Assembly: GCA_900199655.1 (NCBI GenBank)
Contig: FZRE01000005.1
Coordinates: 1-64,000 of the forward strand
Direction: 5' to 3'
DNA: 64,000 bases
Source of the DNA: Prevotellaceae bacterium KH2P17
GTDB taxonomy: Bacteria; Bacteroidota; Bacteroidia; Bacteroidales; Bacteroidaceae
The notes beneath the pieces were generated by a model, which made no database searches, was not told the origin of the DNA, and saw nothing but the letters and a program-made list of their open reading frames with translations. A program made the translations under genes and the position numbers. The first letter of the stretch is position 1. Each line of letters opens with the position of its first letter. Positions 9,321-63,042 of the stretch are shown in pieces.

Positions 9321-9405
9321 GGAGCTATCCTTCAAGCCTCTTGAAGGATAGCTCCAAGCCCCTTGAACGATACCTTCGGCGCGCTTGAAGCATAGCTTCG
9401 GCAAA
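9321..9405 (+). repeat. 22-bp-unit repeat element, copy 1 (inverted half-unit plus three units)
   Basis: An inverted 16-nt half (9321-9336) and the start of unit 1 form a perfect hairpin with a 3-nt loop (CTTGAAGGATAGCTCC as the right arm). Units start at 9340, 9362 and 9384, each exactly 22 bp and each beginning CTTGAA; the last ends GGCAAA. Five other loci in the window share this architecture. It reads toward the esterase gene 478 bp downstream. Confidence 0.85.
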
Positions 9406-18480: not shown

Positions 18481-18520
18481 CTCCTTACTGCTTCCTTTTC
18501 TGCTGCTGCGTGAGGTTAAA

Positions 18521-18650
18521 GACAGAGTAACAAAGTGTTTTTTGCGCTGCCTGCTTGGCTTAAAGACAGAGTAACAGAGTAATTATTCTGCTGCTGCGTG
18601 TTTCTTGCTGCTTAGTTCCTCTTGTATAAAGACAGAGTAACAGAGTGTTT
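18521..18650 (+). repeat. GACAGAGTAACAGAGT repeats (three copies, 44 and 66 bp apart)
   Basis: Copies begin at 18521, 18565 and 18631. Each is preceded by TAAA or ATAAA and followed by GT or AATT runs and CTGCTGCTG-like stretches. The spacings of 44 and 66 bp are multiples of 22. The same motif in inverse orientation forms the array at 18888-19151. Confidence 0.8.
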
Positions 18651-18718
18651 TTTCTGTTGCTGTGGGCTTGTTTATAGATAAGAATAGGTGAGAGAAGATA
18701 AGGAAGAATACAAACAGG

Positions 18719-18830
18719 TATCCTCCCCTTGGAAAGGGGAGGCGGAGGAGGGGATGACCAGAAGGCAGCTTATGGCAAAGAAAGAGGATAAATCATCCCC
18801 TCCTAACCTCCCCTTTCTAAGGGGAGGATA
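18719..18830. repeat. 112-bp composite inverted-repeat element, copy 1
   Basis: The element begins TATCCTCCCCTT and ends AAGGGGAGGATA, so its ends are perfectly inverted. Each half is itself a hairpin (CCTCCCCTT-GGA-AAGGGGAGG and CCTCCCCTT-TCT-AAGGGGAGG). Inner segments GAGGAGGGGATGA and TCATCCCCTCCT also pair. A near-identical copy lies at 20790-20899 and related forms at 28856-28999 and 48841-48947. It encodes no protein. Miniature mobile element and RNA structure are both possible. Confidence 0.85.
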
Positions 18831-18887
18831 CAGGTTTGCTTTGTTGCTGGGCGGCAACTGCTTGTTGTTACTGATAATCAAGCCCGC

Positions 18888-19151
18888 CGGCAGCTTTAAA
18901 ACTACTCTGTTATTTTGTCTCAAAACCACCGCAGCAGCAGAATAATTACTCTGTTACTCTGTCTTAAATCCACAACAGCAGCAGAATAATAACTCTGTTA
19001 CTTTGTCTCAAAGCCACAACAGCAGCAGAATAATTACTCTGTTACTCTGTCTCAAAGCCACAACAGCAACAGAATTATTACTCTGTTACTCTGTCTTCAC
19101 ACCCCGTAGTCAGCAAAACAAATGCTTTGTTACTTTGTCTTCAAACCGCGG
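18888..19151 (-). repeat. Tandem array of six 44-bp units (core TACTCTGTTACTCTGTCT)
   Basis: The core begins at 18903, 18947, 18991, 19035, 19079 and 19123, exactly 44 bp apart each time. Units also share CAGCAGCAGAATAA upstream and CAAAnCCACAA downstream, with drift in the first and last units. There are no unique spacers, so it is not a CRISPR array. It ends about 20 bp from the stop of the thioredoxin-like gene. Confidence 0.9.
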
Positions 19152-19174: not shown

Positions 19175-20344
19175 TTACTTGCCGCAGAGCGCGCGGATTT
19201 CGGCATCCAAGTCCTTGATTTGGGCGTCGCGCTTGTAGAGCGTGTTCTGCTTGTCTATCAGGAAGAACGTCGGCACACCCTGCACATTGTACGTGGCGGC
19301 CGTGCTTCCGTCGGCGTCGCGTACGCTAATCCAGGGCAGTGCAGCCGTCTGCGTCTTCCAGAAATGCTCGTCCGGGTCGAGCGAAACCTGGTAGATTTCA
19401 AGTCCCAGGGCGTGGTATTTGTCGTATAGACTGCGCAAAGTCATGATGCGCTTGGTGCTGCCTTCGGAGGCAAAGACGTGGAAGTCGAGCAGCACAACCC
19501 GTCCCTTGAGGTCGGTCAGGTTGCGGGTGCGGCCCTTGTTGTCGGCCAGCGAGATGTTGATAATGCCCGTCTCGTTCACCTTACTGGCCTCTATGACCTG
19601 CTTGGCCTGTGCGTTTTTGATGATGCGCACGTCCTTCATGCCCTCAATGGCGATGTTGTGCAGGTTCTTTCCACGCTCGGCCTTGGGGTAGAAGGTGTCC
19701 CAGCTCGTGGCCACAGCAGCAAAAACCTTCACGTCGTCCTCGCTGGAGCGGGGGTTGAAGATAAGGTTCTGGGCGCCGCCGAGGGCGAACGTCTGGAACA
19801 GAGCAAAGTAGGCGTAGGCCTTCATGGGCTCTTTGAAGATGTAGTTTCGCTTTACGTTGTCCTTGTAGCTGGCGAGCAGCGCCTCGACGGCCGTCTGCAC
19901 GCTGTCTGCACCCATGTTGGGATTGTTCACAACGGCATTGATGCGGTTCTGCAGGTCAATCTGCATGAGGGCCAGCTCCTTTATCTTCGAGCAGTTCTCC
20001 GACCCGCTCACCTCGTACTGTGACGACATGTTGGGGTAGGAGGCCTTTACGTTAACGGCCTCGGTAGAGTCGATTGAAACGTTGATAATCTGCCCGGCGA
20101 TGCGCAGGCGATAGAATTCGGGCGCGTCGGGAGTGGCCTCGGAGAACGAGAACTCACCGTTTTCGCCCAGTTTAACAGAGTCTACGACCTGCGGACCGTT
20201 AAGGCTCATGTTCTCAAAATACAAGGTCGAGTCCTTGGCGTCGCTGATGGTACCGCTCACCTGGAACTTCTTGTTGTTGCAGGAAGTAATGGCCAACGAG
20301 GCCAGGGCAATGATGGCTGCCGCAAAGAGTTTTGATATTCTCAT
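19175..20344 (-). CDS. TlpA-like thioredoxin-fold lipoprotein lacking the CxxC motif
   Basis: 389 residues with lipobox AITSC. An N-terminal DUF4369-like beta domain (residues about 28-130) and a helical linker precede a C-terminal thioredoxin/AhpC-TSA fold (about 245-389). The cis-proline segment GVPTFFLID and the SLDPDEHFWK segment are typical. At the usual active site, where family members read WASWCGPC, this protein reads VFASEGST, so both cysteines are missing. It is unlikely to be a thiol oxidoreductase and may be a structural or binding derivative. The gene is monocistronic, with its own good promoter. Confidence 0.82.
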   Translation of the reverse strand: MRISKLFAAAIIALASLAITSCNNKKFQVSGTISDAKDSTLYFENMSLNGPQVVDSVKLGENGEFSFSEATPDAPEFYRLRIAGQIINVSIDSTEAVNVKASYPNMSSQYEVSGSENCSKIKELALMQIDLQNRINAVVNNPNMGADSVQTAVEALLASYKDNVKRNYIFKEPMKAYAYFALFQTFALGGAQNLIFNPRSSEDDVKVFAAVATSWDTFYPKAERGKNLHNIAIEGMKDVRIIKNAQAKQVIEASKVNETGIINISLADNKGRTRNLTDLKGRVVLLDFHVFASEGSTKRIMTLRSLYDKYHALGLEIYQVSLDPDEHFWKTQTAALPWISVRDADGSTAATYNVQGVPTFFLIDKQNTLYKRDAQIKDLDAEIRALCGK

Positions 20345-20539: not shown

Positions 20540-20623
20540 TTTACTGAAGATGCCTTTCAACCTCCCCGGAGGTGATGTTCAAGCGCCCTGAACATGCCCT
20601 TCGGCGGCCTTGAATGACACCTT
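20540..20623 (-). repeat. 22-bp-unit repeat element, copy 2
   Basis: On the minus strand an inverted half ending in ATTCAAGGCC is followed by three 22-bp units (forward coordinates 20584-20605, 20562-20583, 20540-20561) beginning GCCGAA, CTTGAA and GTTGAA. The last ends AGTAAA. It is more diverged than the copies at 9321 and 29073 but keeps the exact register. It reads toward the thioredoxin-like gene, ending about 195 bp before its start. Confidence 0.75.
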
Positions 20624-20789
20624 TTCCGCTCTCCCCTTGTAAAGGGCGTTCCGCGGCAGCGTACAAGTTAGCCTGCCGCTTGCTGTTTTCTTGTTTTTAA
20701 AGACAGCGTAACAGAGTGTATTTTTGGCTGCAGTAGACCTTTCCGTTTGTAGGAATAAGTGAGAGGATGATAGCGAAAAGTCAAACTGG

Positions 20790-20899
20790 TATCCTCCCCT
20801 TGGAAAGGGGAGGCGGAGGAGGGGATGACCTGATGGCAGCTATTGGCAAAGAAAGTGGATAAATCATCCCCTCCTAACCTCCCCTTTCTAAGGGGAGGA
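20790..20899. repeat. Composite inverted-repeat element, copy 2
   Basis: More than 90 percent identical by eye to 18719-18830, with the same TATCCTCCCC start, two hairpins whose centres are again 85 bp apart, and the same inner ATGGCA/GGATAAATCATC segment. A single GACAGCGTAACAGAGTG motif precedes it at about 20701. Short hairpins CCCTCCC-AAA-GGGAGGG (20914-20930) follow. The rest of 20345-21040 shows no gene. Confidence 0.85.
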
Positions 20900-21040
20900 A
20901 AAGCCTACCCCGGCCCTCCCAAAGGGAGGGAGACTTTGTCGTATGGATTGAATTGGAACAAAAATACCAGCCTTTCCTCTTATCCACTTCTTATCTATCG
21001 CGCCGCTCCATCCCTTTGGGAGGGCTGGGGTAGGTTCCCC

Positions 21041-21415
21041 TTACAGCCTCGCGAGCTGTGCTCCGGCAAACACGGCGAGCAGACCCAGAAACACGCTGGC
21101 TGCCGTGTAGAGGGCTGCGAGCAGGGCCTGGTCGGAACGGAAGAGGGTGAGCCCCTCGTTACAAAAGGTGGAGAAGGTGGTGAACCCGCCGCAGAAGCCC
21201 ACGGTGAGCAGCAGCTTCAGGTCGGCATTGAGCATGAGGCCGCGGTCGGCCCAGCCGTAAATGAGGCCGATGAGCAGGCATCCGGCCACGTTAATCGTCA
21301 TGGTTCCCAGGGGCAGCTGGGTAAGCACGCTGCCCACGATGAGCCTGGAGAGCACGAACCGAAGCACCGACCCGGCGGCTCCACCCACGGCTACCAATAT
21401 CATGTTGCGTATCAT
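21041..21415 (-). CDS. crcB: Fluoride ion channel/exporter CrcB (FluC)
   Basis: Start chosen at 21415 (MIRNMILVAVGG), which matches family N-termini; an ATG seven codons upstream (21436) would precede the -7 box at 21424-21431. The 124-residue protein has four membrane segments and the family motifs GGAAGSVLRF, GTMTINVAGCLLIG and GFCGGFTTFSTF. It works as a dual-topology dimer exporting fluoride. No fluoride riboswitch could be recognised upstream. Confidence 0.9.
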   Translation of the reverse strand: MIRNMILVAVGGAAGSVLRFVLSRLIVGSVLTQLPLGTMTINVAGCLLIGLIYGWADRGLMLNADLKLLLTVGFCGGFTTFSTFCNEGLTLFRSDQALLAALYTAASVFLGLLAVFAGAQLARL

Positions 21416-21423
21416 ACGGGGTG

Positions 21424-21431
21424 CAAAGGTA
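21424..21431 (-). promoter_or_regulatory. -7 box of crcB
   Basis: TACCTTTG on the minus strand, a good -7 match with no clear -33 partner. It would place the transcript start within a few bases of the chosen crcB start, leaving almost no leader. Confidence 0.4.
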
Positions 21432-21486
21432 ATCATAAAAAACGAAAATTATTTCGCTTTCATTCGTTTATTCATAATAAAATAGG

Positions 21487-28523: not shown

Positions 28524-28605
28524 AGTTTGCCTTTCTTTTCATCTAAAAGCATCGTCGCGCCCGTTGGTCAGCTGTTTTGGCAGCGCTGCTGTTACCCTGC
28601 TGCTC

Positions 28606-28800
28606 TGTCTTTCGTCTGTTTCAGACAGAGTAAAGTTATTCTGTTACTGTGTCTTTTGTCTTTTTCAGACAGAGTAACAAAGTAATTTTTTGCAGCTACT
28701 GTTATTCTGTTACTCTGTCTTTCGTCTTTTTCAGACAGAGTAAAGTTATTCTGTTACTGTGTCTTTTATCTTTTTCAGACAGAGTAGCAAAGTAGTTTCT
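28606..28800. repeat. Alternating TTACTCTGTCT/AGACAGAGTAA hairpins with 44/66/44-bp spacing
   Basis: CAGACAGAG begins at 28622, 28666, 28732 and 28776 (steps 44, 66, 44). Inverted TCTGTTACTSTGTCT motifs lie between, making hairpins such as TTACTCTGTCT-n12-AGACAGAGTAA. The segment starting at 28622 is repeated at 28732, a 110-bp period (5 x 22). It belongs to the same family as 18521-18650 and 18888-19151. Confidence 0.85.
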
Positions 28801-28855
28801 CGATAGGAAAGAGGTTTGGCAGAAAGCTGCAAAGCCTGTTCCATTCGCTGCAGAT

Positions 28856-28999
28856 ATCATCCCCTCCTCCGCCTCCCCTTCCAAGGGGAGGAACCGTTGG
28901 GTATCTATCTGCTTATCAGTAAGGACAAACAGAAGGACTATAGTTGTAAAGTAAACTGGTATCCTCCCCTTGAAAAGGGGAGGCGGAGGAGGGGATGAT
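28856..28999. repeat. Composite G/C-rich element with perfect 25-bp inverted ends
   Basis: The left arm 28856-28880 (ATCATCCCCTCCTCCGCC...) is the exact reverse complement of 28975-28999. Each arm also folds on itself as CCTCCCCTT/AAGGGGAGG. The family is the same as 18719-18830 but with the inner and outer parts arranged the other way round. Between the arms are about 95 bp without recognisable content. Confidence 0.85.
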
Positions 29000-29072
29000 G
29001 CCCCAGCAGCAGGTCTTTTGAAAGTGAACCGGCAAACTGTTGGAAATCAACAGCTTACAAGCAAGGTTGTAA

Positions 29073-29156
29073 AAGCTGTCATTCAAGGCCCTTGAATGGC
29101 ACCTTCAAGGTCGTTGAAGGATAGCTTCAGGGAGCTTGAAGCATAGCTCCGGCAAA
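29073..29156 (+). repeat. 22-bp-unit repeat element, copy 3
   Basis: An inverted half (AAGCTGTCATTCAAGG) is followed by three 22-bp units at 29091, 29113 and 29135. The last unit differs from the last unit of the 9321-9405 copy at only one position, and both end GGCAAA. It reads toward fecR, whose start is 100 bp downstream. Confidence 0.85.
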
Positions 29157-29255: not shown

Positions 29256-30221
29256 ATGCCAGAAGATATCAAACAATTAGCCGTCAGATATTTCGAGGGA
29301 GTCATCACCCGCGACGAGGAAAGCGCGCTGCTTGCTTACGTGGAGCAGAGCGAGGAAAACCGTGCGCGGTTTCGCCAATGTGAGGCGGAGTGGAACGCCC
29401 ATCAGTCGGTCAGCCTGCCTACCAGGCAGGCGTGGGAACGGCTGCAGGGGCGCCTGATGATGCTGGAAGAGCGCCCGGCTCGTACCGTAAGGCTGTGGCG
29501 CCGCGTTGCGGCAGCCGTTGCCGTGGTGCTGTTGCTGGCCGGCACAGCCGCCGTTACGTGGCGGCTGGCAGGCAGCAGGGCCGAGAGCTACTGCACCCTT
29601 ACGGCCCCCATGGGCAGCAAGTCGCGCCTCGCGCTGCCCGATGGTTCCGTAGTGTGGCTCAACGCCGGCTCTACGCTGCGCTATTCAACCCTCTTCGGCC
29701 ACAAGAACCGCCGCGTTGAGCTGAGCGGCGAGGGCTACTTTGAGGTGGCAAAGCATAACGGAGCCGAGTTTACCGTGCACACCTCGGGCTACGATGTGGT
29801 GGTAAAGGGCACCAAGTTCGACGTCTCCGCCTACAGCGACGACCAGTTCATAACCACCTCGCTCATGGAGGGCAGCGTGCTCATTAACCACGGGCGCGAC
29901 CACCTGATGATGAAACCCGGCGAGATGGTGACGCTTGACACCGCCACCGGAGAGTTTACCAAGACCGCTGTAACCAGTGACGGCAGGGCCTGGCTGCACA
30001 ACATGGCCGACTTCGACGACATCACCCTGGCCGACCTGGCCAAAATCCTCTCCCGCCAATACGACGTGCAGATACACATCAAATCGGCCCAGGCAGCTGC
30101 TGTAAGGCTCTCAATCTCGCTGCGCAACAAGGAGACCATCGACGAGGTTCTTGATGCCCTGCAGAAGGTAACGGGCACCCGCGTGACGCGGCACGACAAG
30201 GATATCTACATCAGTCAGTAG
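29256..30221 (+). CDS. FecR-family anti-sigma factor
   Basis: The start at 29256 (MPEDIKQLAVRYFEG) was preferred to an ATG at 29136, whose extra 40 codons read through the repeat element and contain no domain. The 321-residue protein has a cytoplasmic N-terminus of about 80 residues that would bind the sigma factor. One membrane helix (about 84-102) follows. A periplasmic FecR domain (LPDGSVVWLNAGSTLRYS) and a C-terminal DUF4974-like/STN-type domain complete it. It relays the signal from the SusC at 30307 to the ECF factor at 27855. Confidence 0.9.
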   Translation: MPEDIKQLAVRYFEGVITRDEESALLAYVEQSEENRARFRQCEAEWNAHQSVSLPTRQAWERLQGRLMMLEERPARTVRLWRRVAAAVAVVLLLAGTAAVTWRLAGSRAESYCTLTAPMGSKSRLALPDGSVVWLNAGSTLRYSTLFGHKNRRVELSGEGYFEVAKHNGAEFTVHTSGYDVVVKGTKFDVSAYSDDQFITTSLMEGSVLINHGRDHLMMKPGEMVTLDTATGEFTKTAVTSDGRAWLHNMADFDDITLADLAKILSRQYDVQIHIKSAQAAAVRLSISLRNKETIDEVLDALQKVTGTRVTRHDKDIYISQ

Positions 30222-40472: not shown

Positions 40473-40557
40473 TCCATTGAACGTATGCTTTGAGCCCCTT
40501 GAAGCTATCCTTCGGCGGCCTTGAAGCTATCGGTCAAGAGGCCTGAATGCCACCTCC
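40473..40557 (-). repeat. 22-bp-unit repeat element, copy 4 (degenerate)
   Basis: On the minus strand an inverted half (GGAGGTGGCATTCAGG) is followed by 22-bp units beginning CTTGACCGATAGCTTC, GCCGAAGGATAGCTTC and CTCAAAGCATACGTTC. The hairpin is weaker than in other copies (about 9 of 16 positions pair), and the last unit lacks the terminal AAA. It lies in the region between the divergent ATPase and sulfatase genes. The rest of that region has no visible gene. Confidence 0.65.
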
Positions 40558-48602: not shown

Positions 48603-48624
48603 CTTTTCCCCGTTGCCTGTCAGT

Positions 48625-48796
48625 TCATCCCCTCCTCCGCCTCCCCTTTCCAAGGGGAGGTTACCAGTTAGCCTTCTCGCTGTTTTTCTCGCACTCACTT
48701 CTGCTAACAACCAACCCAACAGCAGCTGAAAAATTACTCTGTTACTCTGTCTCAAATCCGCAAAAGCAGCAAAGAGAATACTCTGTTACTCTGTCT
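48625..48796 (+). repeat. 172-bp direct repeat, copy 1
   Basis: Contains TCATCCCCTCCTCCGCC, a CCTCCCCTTT/AAGGGGAGG hairpin, a CTCGCTGTTTTTCTCGCACTC segment and two TACTCTGTTACTCTGTCT cores 44 bp apart (48735, 48779). The block recurs at 48911-49082 with only scattered differences, at an offset of exactly 286 bp. Confidence 0.88.
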
Positions 48797-48840
48797 TAAA
48801 ATATCAGAAGCAAAGTTGCAAAGAGATTACAGCAGCGGTT

Positions 48841-48947
48841 CCTCCCCTTAGAAAGGGGAGGTTAGGAGGGGATGATTACAGCTGGAGTGTGGCAAGGGTT
48901 GGCTAATTCATCATCCCCTCCTCCGCCTCCCCTTTCCAAGGGGAGGA
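48841..48947. repeat. Composite G/C-rich inverted-repeat element
   Basis: Left half CCTCCCCTT-AGA-AAGGGGAGG followed by TTAGGAGGGGATGAT; right half ATCATCCCCTCCTCC followed by CCTCCCCTT-TCC-AAGGGGAGG. The right half is also the start of direct-repeat copy 2. Same family as 18719-18830, 20790-20899 and 28856-28999. Confidence 0.8.
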
Positions 48948-49082
48948 TACCGGTTAGCCTTCTCGCTGTTTTTCTCGCACTCGCTTCTGCTAACAACCAA
49001 GCCAACAGTAGCTGAAAAATTACTCTGTTACTCTGTCTCAAATCCACAAAAGCAGCAAAGAAAACACTCTGTTACTCTGTCT
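48911..49082 (+). repeat. 172-bp direct repeat, copy 2
   Basis: Second copy of 48625-48796, with TACTCTG-type cores at 49021 and 49065, again 44 bp apart. The 286-bp offset equals 13 units of 22 bp. No protein is encoded. Confidence 0.88.
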
Positions 49083-49160
49083 TTAAAAAACAGGAAATAA
49101 CAGGCAGCCGGCAAACTTGCACGCTGTCGTGGAACGCCCATTGCAAGGGAAGAGCGGAAT

Positions 49161-49243
49161 ATGTGTCGTTCAAGCTCCTTGAAAGGCACTTCCAAGCCCC
49201 TTGAACGACAGCTCCGAGAGGCTTGAAGGACACGTCCAAGAAA
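49161..49243 (+). repeat. 22-bp-unit repeat element, copy 5
   Basis: An inverted half (ATGTGTCGTTCAAG) then three 22-bp units at 49178, 49200 and 49222, each beginning CTTGAA. The last ends CCAAGAAA. It reads toward the GH29 gene 216 bp downstream. Confidence 0.82.
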
Positions 49244-54872: not shown

Positions 54873-56075
54873 TTACTTTAATATATCCTTGGCTTTCTCC
54901 ACCTGCAGACTCGCAAGAGCTTGGTAAGCGGCCTTTACCCGTGGGTCGGTTGGTGCCGTGATGCGCAGCTGATACCAGCGATAAACAAGCTCGAGCTCGG
55001 CCTGCTGATAGCTTACGCCGGTGAACTTCTGCAGCTCAACAAGGTATTTGTAGCCATATTCCAAGGTCGGTTCGATGGTTGTTCCCTCTCCATAATCGTT
55101 CCATGTGCTGATTTGGAGCCACTTTAGGCCTGCATTCTTGGCTGCATCAAGCTGGCGCCGGAACAAGGCTCCGTTCTCTGCATCGTAGGTGGTATAGCCG
55201 TCGCCGGCACCACCTTCTTTATAATAGTCGTGGAAACCGGGCATGACTCCGCCTATATACATCTTGAAGTCCTTGGCAACGCCGTAGTTGGGCGATGCGT
55301 TCACCCACGAGTATTCGCCCTCGGCATTGGTGTATCCGCCGTTGTTGGCACGGCCCGAATGCCCGTTCAGGCAAAGGAAAGTGGGCTTGTTTTTGAGAAT
55401 GGCAAACGTTCGATACCAGTCTTTGCCCGTGAGTAGCTGCTGCGGACCGAACACCAGCAGCAGCGGCTGGCCGTCGGCCTTCGCGTAATAGTCTTTGTTG
55501 AAGAAGGTTTCTGCAAGGTAGCGCATGTCGAGACGGGCTTGTCCCACCTTGTCGGAGGCGTCCGCCAGCGCGTTGTCTTCATAGACAACGGCCATCTTCA
55601 GCCCTGCCTTTGCGATGGCGCGGGCCAATGCTTCGGTGTTGCTCTTGTGCTTGGCAACGGTGTTGTCACTGTTCACACCGTACCAGTCTACCATCACACC
55701 GTCTACGCCGCTGTACTTCATCAGCAGGCATTGATAGTCGAGGATGGCCTCATCGCCGGAGGCATAAGGCCCGGTGAGGGGATAGTAGTGTGAAGCAATC
55801 TGCCGCCGGCCGTCTTGGTCGACCACGTTGGGGTCGCAGTTCTTCATCGTCCAATGGTAGCCCCATGTGCCGCCGTTCGACTCGTTGGTTTCAAACCACG
55901 GCATGAAGTGTACGTACACCTGCATGTCGTTTGTCTTGCTGACGGCTTTGGCCACTGATGCCTCTTCCGTCTCATCAGCACTCTTCTTCGGTGCTCCCGG
56001 ATAGCTGTCCTCGCAGCTGCTCCAGGTCATCATGCTGCATAAAAGCAGCAGGGGTAATATATGTTTTCTCATCAT
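54873..56075 (-). CDS. GH71/GH99-like lipoprotein hydrolase
   Basis: 400 residues, lipobox WSSCED. Barrel motifs MQVYVHFMPWFETNE, YSGVDGVMVDWYGVN and WLQISTWNDYGEGTTIEPT match the GH71/99-like group. Related families cleave alpha-1,3-glucan (GH71) or alpha-mannoside internally (GH99), and this protein has not been placed in either with confidence. The lipid anchor points to the cell surface, where it would make the first cut. It is 7 bp from GH97, with 338 bp separating it from susD. Confidence 0.78.
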   Translation of the reverse strand: MMRKHILPLLLLCSMMTWSSCEDSYPGAPKKSADETEEASVAKAVSKTNDMQVYVHFMPWFETNESNGGTWGYHWTMKNCDPNVVDQDGRRQIASHYYPLTGPYASGDEAILDYQCLLMKYSGVDGVMVDWYGVNSDNTVAKHKSNTEALARAIAKAGLKMAVVYEDNALADASDKVGQARLDMRYLAETFFNKDYYAKADGQPLLLVFGPQQLLTGKDWYRTFAILKNKPTFLCLNGHSGRANNGGYTNAEGEYSWVNASPNYGVAKDFKMYIGGVMPGFHDYYKEGGAGDGYTTYDAENGALFRRQLDAAKNAGLKWLQISTWNDYGEGTTIEPTLEYGYKYLVELQKFTGVSYQQAELELVYRWYQLRITAPTDPRVKAAYQALASLQVEKAKDILK

Positions 56076-56184: not shown

Positions 56185-56269
56185 TTTCATACAGCTATGC
56201 TTCGGCGTTGTTGGAGCTATCGTTCAAGAGCGTTGAAGCATAGCTTCAAGCGCCTTGAAGGACAGCTCT
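56185..56269 (-). repeat. 22-bp-unit repeat element, copy 6
   Basis: On the minus strand an inverted half (AGAGCTGTCCTTCAAGG) is followed by three 22-bp units (forward 56229-56250, 56207-56228, 56185-56206) beginning CTTGAA, CTTGAA and GCCGAA. The last ends ATGAAA. It reads toward the GH71/99-like gene, whose start is about 110 bp on. The remaining bases of 56076-56412 show no gene. Confidence 0.83.
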
Positions 56270-56412: not shown

Positions 56413-57939
56413 TTATTTATATCCCGGGTTCTGTACCAAATTGGGGTTCTTCTCCATCTCCTCTTCAGGTATGGGGAAGATGCCCGTGTGCCTGTCAGCT
56501 TCGGCAGGTTTGTTCCACCAGGCATCGAAGAATGTGCCGAAACGGATGTTGGTTGTGCGTCTCAGACCTTCGAAGACGAATTCGTGGAGCCACTCCTTGT
56601 CGAGTGCGTCGATGGTGAGCGTGGTCAGGTCAGGTAGCCCCGCACGCTTGCGGATTTGGTTGATGTAGGAGAGCGCGTTCTGCTCGTAGCCGAGCCGATA
56701 GTTGGCTTCGGCCTGCATCATCAGCACCTCGGCGTAGCGCATCAGCACCCAGTCGTTGTCGCGCTCCCAGGCATCGGTGGGTCCCCATTCGTACTTGTCA
56801 AGCCGTGCTCCCTCGTTCTGTGCGGCATTTTCAAAGTTCTTGATGTCCTCGGTGTAGTTCAGCGGCTCCCCGTTGTCCATCAGCACCTCGGCACCTGTGG
56901 CCACATTGTACTGCTGACCAATGAGGAGACTGCTGCGGCGCACGTCGTTCTCCTCGAACGATGAGTAGACTCCCGGCTGGGCGCAGATACCGTTGCCGCA
57001 CCACTGGTACACACCGGCAGGGTCGAAGGCGTACTTCTGGTTGTAGTGATAGGTCATGGAGGCCAGGTAGTTGCCCACGGTGCCCTGCTTGTGGTCGTAG
57101 GGAATGGCGAATATAATTTCCGTGGAGCCTTGGTTCTCAATGGCAAAGCTGGCCTTGTAGGCGGGTGTCAGCGAGTAGCCCTTCACCTTGTCGCAGGCAT
57201 CCAGGCAGTCCTGCCACCGGGCTTTGCCCGTATAGACCTCTGCATTGAGATAGAGACGGGCCAGCAGCGTATAGGCAACATTCTGTGTAAAGCGGCCATA
57301 CTGAATGCCGGCAGGCAACAGCGGAAGCACTTCCTTGAGCTCCTTCTCAATGAAATCAAACACTTCCTGGCGCGTTGAGTTCTTGGGAAGCTCGCTTTCG
57401 GTGAAGTCGGTGGTGATGGGAACGTTGCCGAAGTTGTCGAGCAGGTTGTAGTAATAGTAGGCACGGAGCCCGCGCAGTTCGGCTTCAGCTATCTTCTTTG
57501 ACTCTTCGCCGAGCTCGCTCTTCTCCACCTGGTAGATGATGCCGTTGACCTTGGAAACGCCTGTGAAGTTGTATCTCCAGATGGAGAGCACGCCCGTGTT
57601 CTGTGCATCCCAGGTGTGATATTGCAGTTGCTGGTAGCGCCCACCGTCGTACCAGTCGGTGCCGCGGGTCGGGATGCAGGCCTCGTCGCTTGAGCATTCG
57701 GAGGTAAAGAACACATACTCGCATGTAGGGTAGCAGTTCACGCCGTTGCCCTCGGGTGTACCGGAGCCATAGCCACGCAGGGTGGCGTAGGCGCCTCCTA
57801 CGATGGTGGATATCTCTGTTTCGTTCTTGCCGTAATCGTTCATTGATACTTTGTCGTAAAGATGCTCTTTCAGGTCTGTACATGACGTCATCACGGTTCC
57901 TGCCAGCAGGAGTGATGATAGTATATATCTTGCTTTCAT
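56413..57939 (-). CDS. SusD/RagB-family lipoprotein (third locus)
   Basis: 508 residues, lipobox TVMTSCTD. The typical C-terminal signature WLHEFVFEGLRRTTNIRFG and TPR helices (RYAEVLMMQAEANYRLG) are present. It pairs with the SusC encoded 27 bp upstream in the operon. Glycan specificity unknown. Confidence 0.93.
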   Translation of the reverse strand: MKARYILSSLLLAGTVMTSCTDLKEHLYDKVSMNDYGKNETEISTIVGGAYATLRGYGSGTPEGNGVNCYPTCEYVFFTSECSSDEACIPTRGTDWYDGGRYQQLQYHTWDAQNTGVLSIWRYNFTGVSKVNGIIYQVEKSELGEESKKIAEAELRGLRAYYYYNLLDNFGNVPITTDFTESELPKNSTRQEVFDFIEKELKEVLPLLPAGIQYGRFTQNVAYTLLARLYLNAEVYTGKARWQDCLDACDKVKGYSLTPAYKASFAIENQGSTEIIFAIPYDHKQGTVGNYLASMTYHYNQKYAFDPAGVYQWCGNGICAQPGVYSSFEENDVRRSSLLIGQQYNVATGAEVLMDNGEPLNYTEDIKNFENAAQNEGARLDKYEWGPTDAWERDNDWVLMRYAEVLMMQAEANYRLGYEQNALSYINQIRKRAGLPDLTTLTIDALDKEWLHEFVFEGLRRTTNIRFGTFFDAWWNKPAEADRHTGIFPIPEEEMEKNPNLVQNPGYK

Positions 57940-62737: not shown

Positions 62738-62915
62738 GCTGAAAAAATGCAGAATAGAAACTTTAATAAGGAATGTATAATCGAAAAACCTTATGCTGAT
62801 TCCGTCATGTATTGATAATCAGTATGTTATCTGGCAAGGAACGTTCAGGATGTATTATCGATATATAGCCTCGTTTAGGCAGTTTTCCGGTTTCTCCAGG
62901 TATCAGAAAGGGGTG

Positions 62916-63003
62916 CTGAAAGGTAGCTTCGGGAACTTTCGACACTTGTCGAAAGAATGTGCGACAAGTGTCGCACGATTATTTGACAGGTGTCGAAAGT
63001 TGC
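62916..63003. repeat. Palindromic 22-bp-period array between hutI and the third locus
   Basis: Three palindromes follow each other: CTTTCGACA-CT-TGTCGAAAG, GTGCGACA-AG-TGTCGCAC and ATTTGACA-GG-TGTCGAAA. Their centres lie at 62945.5, 62967.5 and 62989.5, exactly 22 bp apart. The preceding CTGAAAGGTAGCTTCGGG resembles one unit of the CTTGAA family. The rest of 62689-63042 shows only the operon promoter. Confidence 0.85.
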
Positions 63004-63042
63004 GTGTGATGATAAACATTACCCTGCAAGCATTCTTTTATG

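Follow-up and report, generated by a model that had tools for sequence, protein, structure and literature searches.

Triple palindromes at a 22-bp pitch in intergenic DNA of Prevotella: evenly spaced repeats with a possible chromosome-scale role

What does an 85-bp element do that recurs between genes at six places in one 64-kb stretch of DNA, each time with its parts at the same distance from one another? The window, which is the whole stretch analysed here, comprises the first 64 kb of contig 23 (179,890 bases) in a genome of 3.30 Mb and 40 contigs (G000). Among the 80 loci listed, the PNPase of this genome is nearest to those of Prevotella and of relatives such as Hoylesella and Hallella. 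An earlier note, made from the letters of the window alone, described the six copies as an inverted half-unit followed by three 22-bp units that read toward a following gene start. On re-reading the window sequence, we find all six at the positions and on the strands given there (Table 1). Each copy has an inverted core ending in TTCAAG (TTCAGG in the copy at 40473) and then three units, each of exactly 22 bp. With a matrix built from them, the six triples score 47-72 bits, compared with a best score of -0.8 in 20 mononucleotide-shuffled windows, and 18 of 18 units score positive when the matrix leaves out their own element. The AAA reported at the end of the last unit is present in five of the six window copies, but it is a weak feature of the family overall (16 of 36 copies).

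Counted in units, this element (family A) is an inverted core of 16 bp followed, after a spacer of 3 bp, by three units of 22 bp each, which gives 85 bp. Because every core is itself near-palindromic, the element can also be read as three palindromes TTCAAGnnnCTTGAA with centres 22 bp apart, flanked by GGAGCTATC and GATAGCTCC. This plan, with its 22-bp pitch and near-dyad symmetry, is a better description than an inverted half-unit and three units. The near-palindromic cores also explain why a covariance model matches both strands of many elements with a 6 bp offset. The 12 palindrome letters are exact at the three junctions in 28/57, 20/57 and 23/57 copies of a family A set to which the covariance-model search contributed 21 of the 57. 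The polar part of the element is a short A-rich tail, and conservation drops at the element borders.

Table 1. Positions of the triple-palindrome elements in the 64-kb window
Feature	Position	Strand	Structure and surroundings
Family A element	9321..9405	+	85 bp, three TTCAAGnnnCTTGAA-type palindromes, 22-bp pitch; divergent intergenic region
Family A element	20540..20624	-	Co-directional intergenic; between minus-strand ORF 21041-21436 and thioredoxin-like gene 19175-20344
Family A element	29072..29156	+	Divergent intergenic; upstream of 29256-30221 and TonB-dependent receptor gene 30307
Family A element	40473..40557	-	Divergent intergenic; weakest hairpin folding among the six
Family A element	49159..49243	+	Co-directional intergenic; upstream of alpha-L-fucosidase gene 49459
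Family A element	56185..56269	-	Between SusD-like gene 56413-57939 and 54873-56033, both on the minus strand
Family B element	62911..63004	.	A-like unit, GGAACTTTC, three GACAnnTGTC palindromes (62941-62994), then GAAAGTT

Other intergenic repeats of the window, at 18498-19147, 20687-20900, 28585-29000 and 48620-49093, are a 22/44-bp minisatellite based on CTCTGTTACTCTGTCTTT and a hairpin, CCTCCCCTTnnnAAGGGGAGG. A 22-bp word closely similar to that of the minisatellite is also present in genomes G147 and G161.

A position weight matrix scan of 464 kb of the genome (the window and a further 400 kb from contigs 20 and 35) detects 36 copies of family A, all full length, from which about 256 per genome can be extrapolated. 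The lowest-scoring copy reaches 52, whereas the best reversed-control score is -16. All 36 copies lie between genes as called by our own gene caller. All 36 also match an ungapped 85-bp model, although copies with gaps are invisible to a scan of this kind. A gapped profile search of the same 464 kb (E<=0.01) returns these 36 together with four distinct short partial places, two of which lie beside a full element. Mean pairwise identity is 61%, and just two pairs exceed 0.85. With 36 full-length copies, few partial ones and this level of identity, length and pitch are evidently held while sequence drifts. In this the earlier note was right: the copies form a coherent repeat family with a fixed 22-bp pitch (36 of 36 copies), which suggests sites two helical turns apart, and their units drift in sequence but not in length.

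Two of the copies, G000:C20:47502 and 58222, are near-identical and share unusual third units; they probably belong to a duplication of recent date. At G000:C20:32134 and C35:124537, other words (TTACCAGATAGTGGTAA; CTCCTTACGCTAAAAAGCATA) form longer, uniform tandem arrays of 22-bp pitch.

The first proposal for the function of these elements was local control of the following gene, as would be exerted by the operators of a regulon. Within the window, all six copies do face a start, 100-478 bp away. Outside it, however, only 7 of 30 copies do so, which leaves 13 of 36 overall, so that orientation relative to genes, which the earlier note had named as a check, is not constant. The co-orientation seen in the window is a chance feature of this stretch. 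In addition, 15 of the 36 elements lie between convergent genes, and the even spacing described below is not what operators would be expected to show. A promoter-facing operator was rejected by these orientation counts, and regulon operators as a class are a most improbable explanation.

None of the 160 tabulated elements or array hits is located inside a called gene. In the own genome, elements favour convergent gene pairs: 23 of 58 are found there, compared with 12 of 56 element-free intergenic regions of at least 150 bp (p=0.04). The preference is also evident when five genomes are pooled without G161 (41/118 vs 31/192, OR 2.8, p=3e-4) and when G161, which repeats elements of G147, is included (57/158 vs 35/262). 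Divergent regions are not significantly depleted of elements (p 0.17); they hold 12 of the 58 elements in the own genome. The median distance from element centre to the nearest stop codon is 178 bp in the own genome.

The convergent preference is compatible with a function at the RNA level, in which hairpins at transcript ends would terminate or stabilise converging transcripts. As forward-strand RNA, the window copies fold better than every one of 200 shuffles in five of six cases, the exception being the copy at 40473 (z -0.9). The hairpin of inverted core and unit 1 described in the earlier note is part of the minimum-energy fold for the copies at 9321 (16 bp) and 29073 (11 bp), but not for the other four. 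The inverted core pairs with unit 3 in the copies at 20540 and 49161, and with unit 2 in the copy at 56185. That different copies pair different units counts against RNA elements, as do the presence of elements in divergent regions and their distance from stop codons. Compensatory changes in the hairpin, which that note proposed as a check, amount to weak covariation only. The first (5') hairpin tops covariation in larger sets of two species (z 4.1 in a set partly picked with the hairpin model; z 3.2 in G016), where the excess is 0.4-0.6 pairs of 16. In the unselected 36 family A copies, covariation is largest at the whole dyad. Little base-pair covariation is as expected of protein sites, and an RNA hairpin as the main constraint was set aside because covariation is only weak. 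Neither the 22-bp pitch nor even spacing is predicted by RNA function, and we regard RNA-level elements as unlikely.

The earlier note knew of no described family with this plan, and database searches agree. There is no match at threshold in Rfam or in phage or plasmid records; the one Rfam match is at chance level, far below the gathering score, and an array from P. falsenii has no match in plasmid records.

A scan that uses no sequence at all, and measures only the similarity among four 16-bp cores, exposed a second family in the own genome. Family B has three GACAnnTGTC palindromes at the same 22-bp pitch as A, set between GGAACTTTC and GAAAGTTCC, with A-like units as a weaker outer frame. 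It occupies 23 places in the 464 kb that hold the 36 A copies, one of them in the window. The A-like left unit of this window element is also detected by the A matrix and by the gapped A profile search.

When both families are considered together, the elements are evenly spaced along the chromosome. The 59 elements define 56 gaps with a mean of 7,351 bp, a minimum of 2,424 bp and a CV of 0.397. The expected CV is 0.732, and none of 4,000 randomisations was as even. The null model places elements in random intergenic regions that are stratified by gene orientation and weighted by length. One B element (C35:226), which has no gene at its left, was omitted from the context counts and from this null but kept in the observed gaps. 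Family A alone is not significantly even (CV 0.69 vs 0.80, P=0.19), and its shortest gap is long (P 0.0015). Family B fills the gaps of family A: when A was kept in place and the positions of B were drawn at random, the mean combined CV was 0.59, and none of 10,000 placements was as low as observed. Nearest A-to-B distance alone, taken as the plain number of B elements within 3 kb of an A, is not significant (P=0.09).

Contig 20 begins with 35 kb (positions 1-35000; L031 and L032) without A or B elements. A gene for a phage-type integrase lies near the left end of this stretch and a tRNA at about 27.4 kb, so part of the stretch may be acquired DNA.

Even spacing is significant in three of the four species tested. 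Besides the own genome, these are G012 (P=0.0055, 18 elements) and G016 (P=0.006, 20 elements). In G016, counts per 20 kb are also under-dispersed (variance/mean 0.505, p=0.002) across 95 elements in 47 samples taken round the chromosome (940 kb); locus L253, which overlaps another stretch, was left out of this count. The fourth species, G161, gave no significant result (CV 0.84 vs 0.86, P=0.48) with a list that mixes families and probably other repeats, even though minisatellite arrays were removed first. The regions used for the spacing test missed two of the 18 G012 elements and one G161 element. Array density is one per 7-11 kb in three of the genomes sampled. A fourth, G010, is sparser, with 6 family members in 200 kb.

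Five of the 47 G016 samples are empty. Two of these are neighbours at 1.37 and 1.48 Mb (samples 1372801 and 1478401), and another two, at 3.06 Mb and at the contig start (samples 3062401 and 1), are neighbours only if the contig is circular. The two element-free pairs of 20-kb samples are roughly half a chromosome apart, which could reflect chance or a link to origin and terminus.

The sequence-free scan also reveals how widely the geometry is distributed. A lag-22 peak appears in all six same-genus genomes scanned, namely the own genome and five relatives. Two own contigs yield 16 and 19 hits at this lag (<=4 and 0 at other lags), and the relatives yield 16 in G012 (<=1), 7 in G010 (<=2), 11 in G016 (0), 24 in G147 (<=4) and 9 in G161 (<=3), with some of the G147 and G161 hits coming from other repeats that have this pitch, a larger one and a minisatellite. 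The pitch is common to these genomes, the DNA words are not: G012 has CTAAAAGCATAGCTTTTAG types, G010 has GTAAAAGGTAACCTTTTAC types and G016 has TTTGACGCAAAT types, while both a TTTCATGAAA family and a GGTGC/GCACC family are found in G147 and G161. We take the last two genomes to resemble the P. melaninogenica group on account of their two-chromosome layout and a word in common with P. jejuni. Arrays of 22-bp pitch also occur in named records, for example of Hoylesella buccalis and Prevotella jejuni; across named PNPase loci, lag 22 gives 18 hits and other lags give 0-11, so that the peak stands out less than it does in the sampled genomes. In five genomes from other families of Bacteroidales (344 kb in all), the scan gave a single lag-22 hit and 0-2 hits at other lags. 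A count of arrays by a loose motif was too noisy and was dropped.

Searches for the family A sequence itself find much less. After a degenerate pattern gave no match, a covariance model was used, which returned at least 150 matches, many of them one place on both strands. Thirteen of 40 genomes, the own genome included, have a match at E<=0.01, mostly one or two weak ones each. G012 has 18 and G014 has 10, and four genomes of other families have single weak matches (E 0.001-0.005). Among 299 members of the genus, the best relative of the own genome is 73% identical in the one gene aligned. At this level of identity, the position of the 20540 element is conserved in none of nine relatives. Around the linked gene, three of the nine loci have an array-like match (scores 59, 61 and 70), in no case where the 20540 element would be; the match in L178 is on the same side as that element, about 1.1 kb out.

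A closer comparison is provided by G147 and G161, which are collinear and about 95% identical in the region compared. In 120 kb of G147, 26 arrays of 22-bp pitch were called, and 14 of these belong to two small dispersed families. The remaining 12 were left out because they represent a larger repeat (8), a minisatellite (3) or a single-copy array (1). All 14 have a partner at the orthologous site in G161, whereas at least two of the 12 others are missing there, namely one larger repeat (46388) and the single-copy array (116389). Ten of the 14 pairs have no indel within the array. One pair differs by exactly 44 bp and one by 22 bp, which correspond to whole units, and in two a single base is inserted among the units, so that the pitch in these two genomes is not strictly fixed.

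As whole elements, the 14 arrays change at 5.6%, a rate not clearly lower than in their flanks (6.9%) or elsewhere in non-coding DNA (5.5%). When these elements were analysed a second time, with palindrome-consistent positions separated from other sites, the signal was clear. Palindrome-consistent positions are changed in 15 of 638 cases (2.4%), compared with 204 of 2,775 (7.4%) in the flanks (p=4e-7), and the difference is also found with G161 as the reference (17/630 vs 189/2,797, p=4e-5). Other core positions (22/226) and spacers (19/282) change at near the flank rate. Slow change confined to palindrome positions is a pattern of binding sites, to which exchange between units could contribute. 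For this pair of genomes, the alignments thus show conserved position and purifying selection on the palindromes.

The larger repeat at G147:C1:145888-146762 (L181 5888-6762) spans about 660 bp of an 875-bp block, is absent at G161:C1:11931-11949, and has many partial matches across G161. The single-copy 22-bp array lies at about G147:C1 216297-216501 (joined coordinates 116297-116501) and carries three exact copies of a AAAAAGGTTGACC word. Its 205-bp block is replaced by a few bases in G161, and the word occurs nowhere else in the G147 and G161 DNA examined.

Palindromic repeats scattered through genomes are commonly regarded as selfish remnants. One alternative for the arrays is that they are REP/BIME- or MITE-like mobile elements, non-autonomous and copied by a palindrome-reading transposase, which the host later kept; their even spacing would then arise from target immunity or the purging of dense copies. 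High copy number, palindromes, intergenic location and lineage-specific sequence all fit, as does the framing of family B by inverted A-like flanks. Moreover, a concerted change of dialect at hundreds of sites would be hard to achieve by slow protein co-evolution and may need a copying mechanism, which mobile elements would provide. For REP/BIME sequences, roles in supercoiling, termination and mRNA stability have been proposed.

The resemblance to REPs lies in short palindromes, high copy number and species specificity (PMC3733652). REPs are characterized there by GTAG or CGTC tags, the GTAG type being associated with RAYT transposases (PMC3733652). Family A has neither tag nor linked RAYT; its three palindromes keep a fixed pitch, and together with B it is evenly spaced along the chromosome. 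Specifically, the tags or their complements are present in at most 1 of 36 family A copies at any column, and TGTC, which has been reported as a variant of CGTC, reaches no more than 6 of 36. No Y1_Tnp (RAYT-type) gene is found in G012, G147 or G161, all of them element-bearing and together three of the seven genus genomes searched. The own genome has a Y1 transposase, but the 2.2 kb of its locus, truncated where the contig ends, contain no A element or B core. A RAYT-driven REP was rejected on these grounds. With regard to MITE criteria, family A is dyad-symmetric but lacks target-site duplication beyond chance: flanking duplications of 6-9 bp are absent, and those of 4-5 bp are near chance (10 vs 7.2, 2 vs 1.8). 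The four partial places beside 36 full copies, the 61% mean identity, the 14 of 14 sites of two small families common to G147 and G161, and the selection on palindromes also speak against mobile elements, although one larger repeat and the single-copy array do differ in presence between these two genomes. We judge this origin to be rather unlikely.

In the open-access literature, we found no description of a triple-palindrome plan at 22 bp, the nearest being PINSR and BrickBuilt. BOX/RUP, RPE, ERIC and other interspersed repeats are dispersed, intergenic and dyad-symmetric, as the arrays are; to our knowledge, none has a fixed three-palindrome 22-bp plan or even spacing. BrickBuilt, a minisatellite/MITE of P. 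gingivalis, is longer than the arrays. The available text on it describes 23-nt tandem bricks and no BLASTn match outside P. gingivalis, yet homologues in P. gulae (PMC4596501). It shares with the arrays its presence in Bacteroidales and bricks of about two helical turns, and differs, as far as that text goes, in having a leader and tail and 23-nt units (PMC4596501).

PINSR, which is specific to the P. intermedia/nigrescens group, is given in the accessible portion of its report as a 188-bp sequence without terminal inverted repeats, intergenic, with 177-184 copies per genome and about three quarters of its regions common to two strains (PMC4755523). Like the arrays, it is found between genes of Prevotella, has a clade-specific sequence and is described there as of unknown function (PMC4755523). 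For comparison, family A is intergenic with its roughly 256 extrapolated copies, and position stability among the arrays is known from the G147/G161 pair only. Neither a 22-bp pitch nor triple palindromes, evenness of spacing or sister families in other species are mentioned in that portion of the report (PMC4755523). PINSR, compared here by its published description, may be another dialect of the same system. The arrays therefore belong among interspersed intergenic palindromic repeats, and in the literature examined, in the parts accessible, even spacing and a geometry kept without sequence had not been reported.

Species-specific dialects at many sites per genome are also reminiscent of the DNA uptake or recombination recognition sequences of Neisseria and Haemophilus (DUS/USS), for which dialects and many copies per genome are reportedly known. 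Even spacing is typical of such sequences, USS in particular. Uptake sequences are, however, only about 10-12 bp long and common inside genes, whereas the arrays measure 85 bp, consist of three palindromes and, as far as tabulated, do not lie in called genes, and two dialects in one genome would be unexpected. We consider this explanation very unlikely.

An even layout, indifferent to gene direction and built from two words in one genome, fits a chromosome-scale task and is hard to reconcile with local control or RNA hairpins. The spacing, the filling of gaps by B, the shared 22-bp geometry and the slow change of palindromes all point to a selected function at this scale. Quite possibly, although we propose it tentatively, the arrays are bound by dimeric proteins and serve to organise the nucleoid or relieve torsion across the chromosome, not to control single genes. 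Three palindromic dimer sites set two helical turns apart would place bound dimers on one face of the helix, where cooperative binding might occur. Torsion accumulates between convergent genes, and arrays placed at roughly regular intervals, between genes and preferably between convergent pairs, could serve the nucleoid as a whole. Candidate tasks are the anchoring or bridging of nucleoid proteins, the division of supercoil domains and the recruitment of torsion relief. Families A and B would be interchangeable dialects of one system in this genome, and other species would use other dialects with the same geometry. Several observations count against this reading: the spacing in G161, the lack of significant evenness in A alone and in the nearest A-to-B distances, the arrays missing from G161 and the single inserted bases, the position of the 20540 element that no relative keeps, the whole-element substitution rate, the weak covariation at the 5' hairpin and the difficulty of explaining a concerted change of dialect.

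More tentative still is the possibility that this is a genus-wide chromosome-organising system of Prevotella, set by geometry and not by sequence, in which the word is replaced between species and two words can share one layout. If so, bacteria would have their own version of chromosome anchor sites set at regular intervals, together with reader proteins that co-evolve with them, and this would pose the evolutionary question of how the DNA word of hundreds of sites changes while the layout is kept. We know of few sequence-specific nucleoid factors in Bacteroidota, and a chromosome-wide role of the arrays, if true, would offer a testable handle on nucleoid organisation in this phylum.

HU-HIG proteins (PF18291), as nucleoid proteins that might read sequence, are a lead only to the reader of the arrays, and are too widespread to serve as evidence. 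Strong copies are present in the six element-bearing genomes tested (best 84-95 bits), and five genomes of other families have weak matches only (<=42.5 bits). At E<=1e-14, the domain is found in 25 of 30 genera of the same family. Many genomes carry several strong copies, with up to 24 at that threshold in G356.
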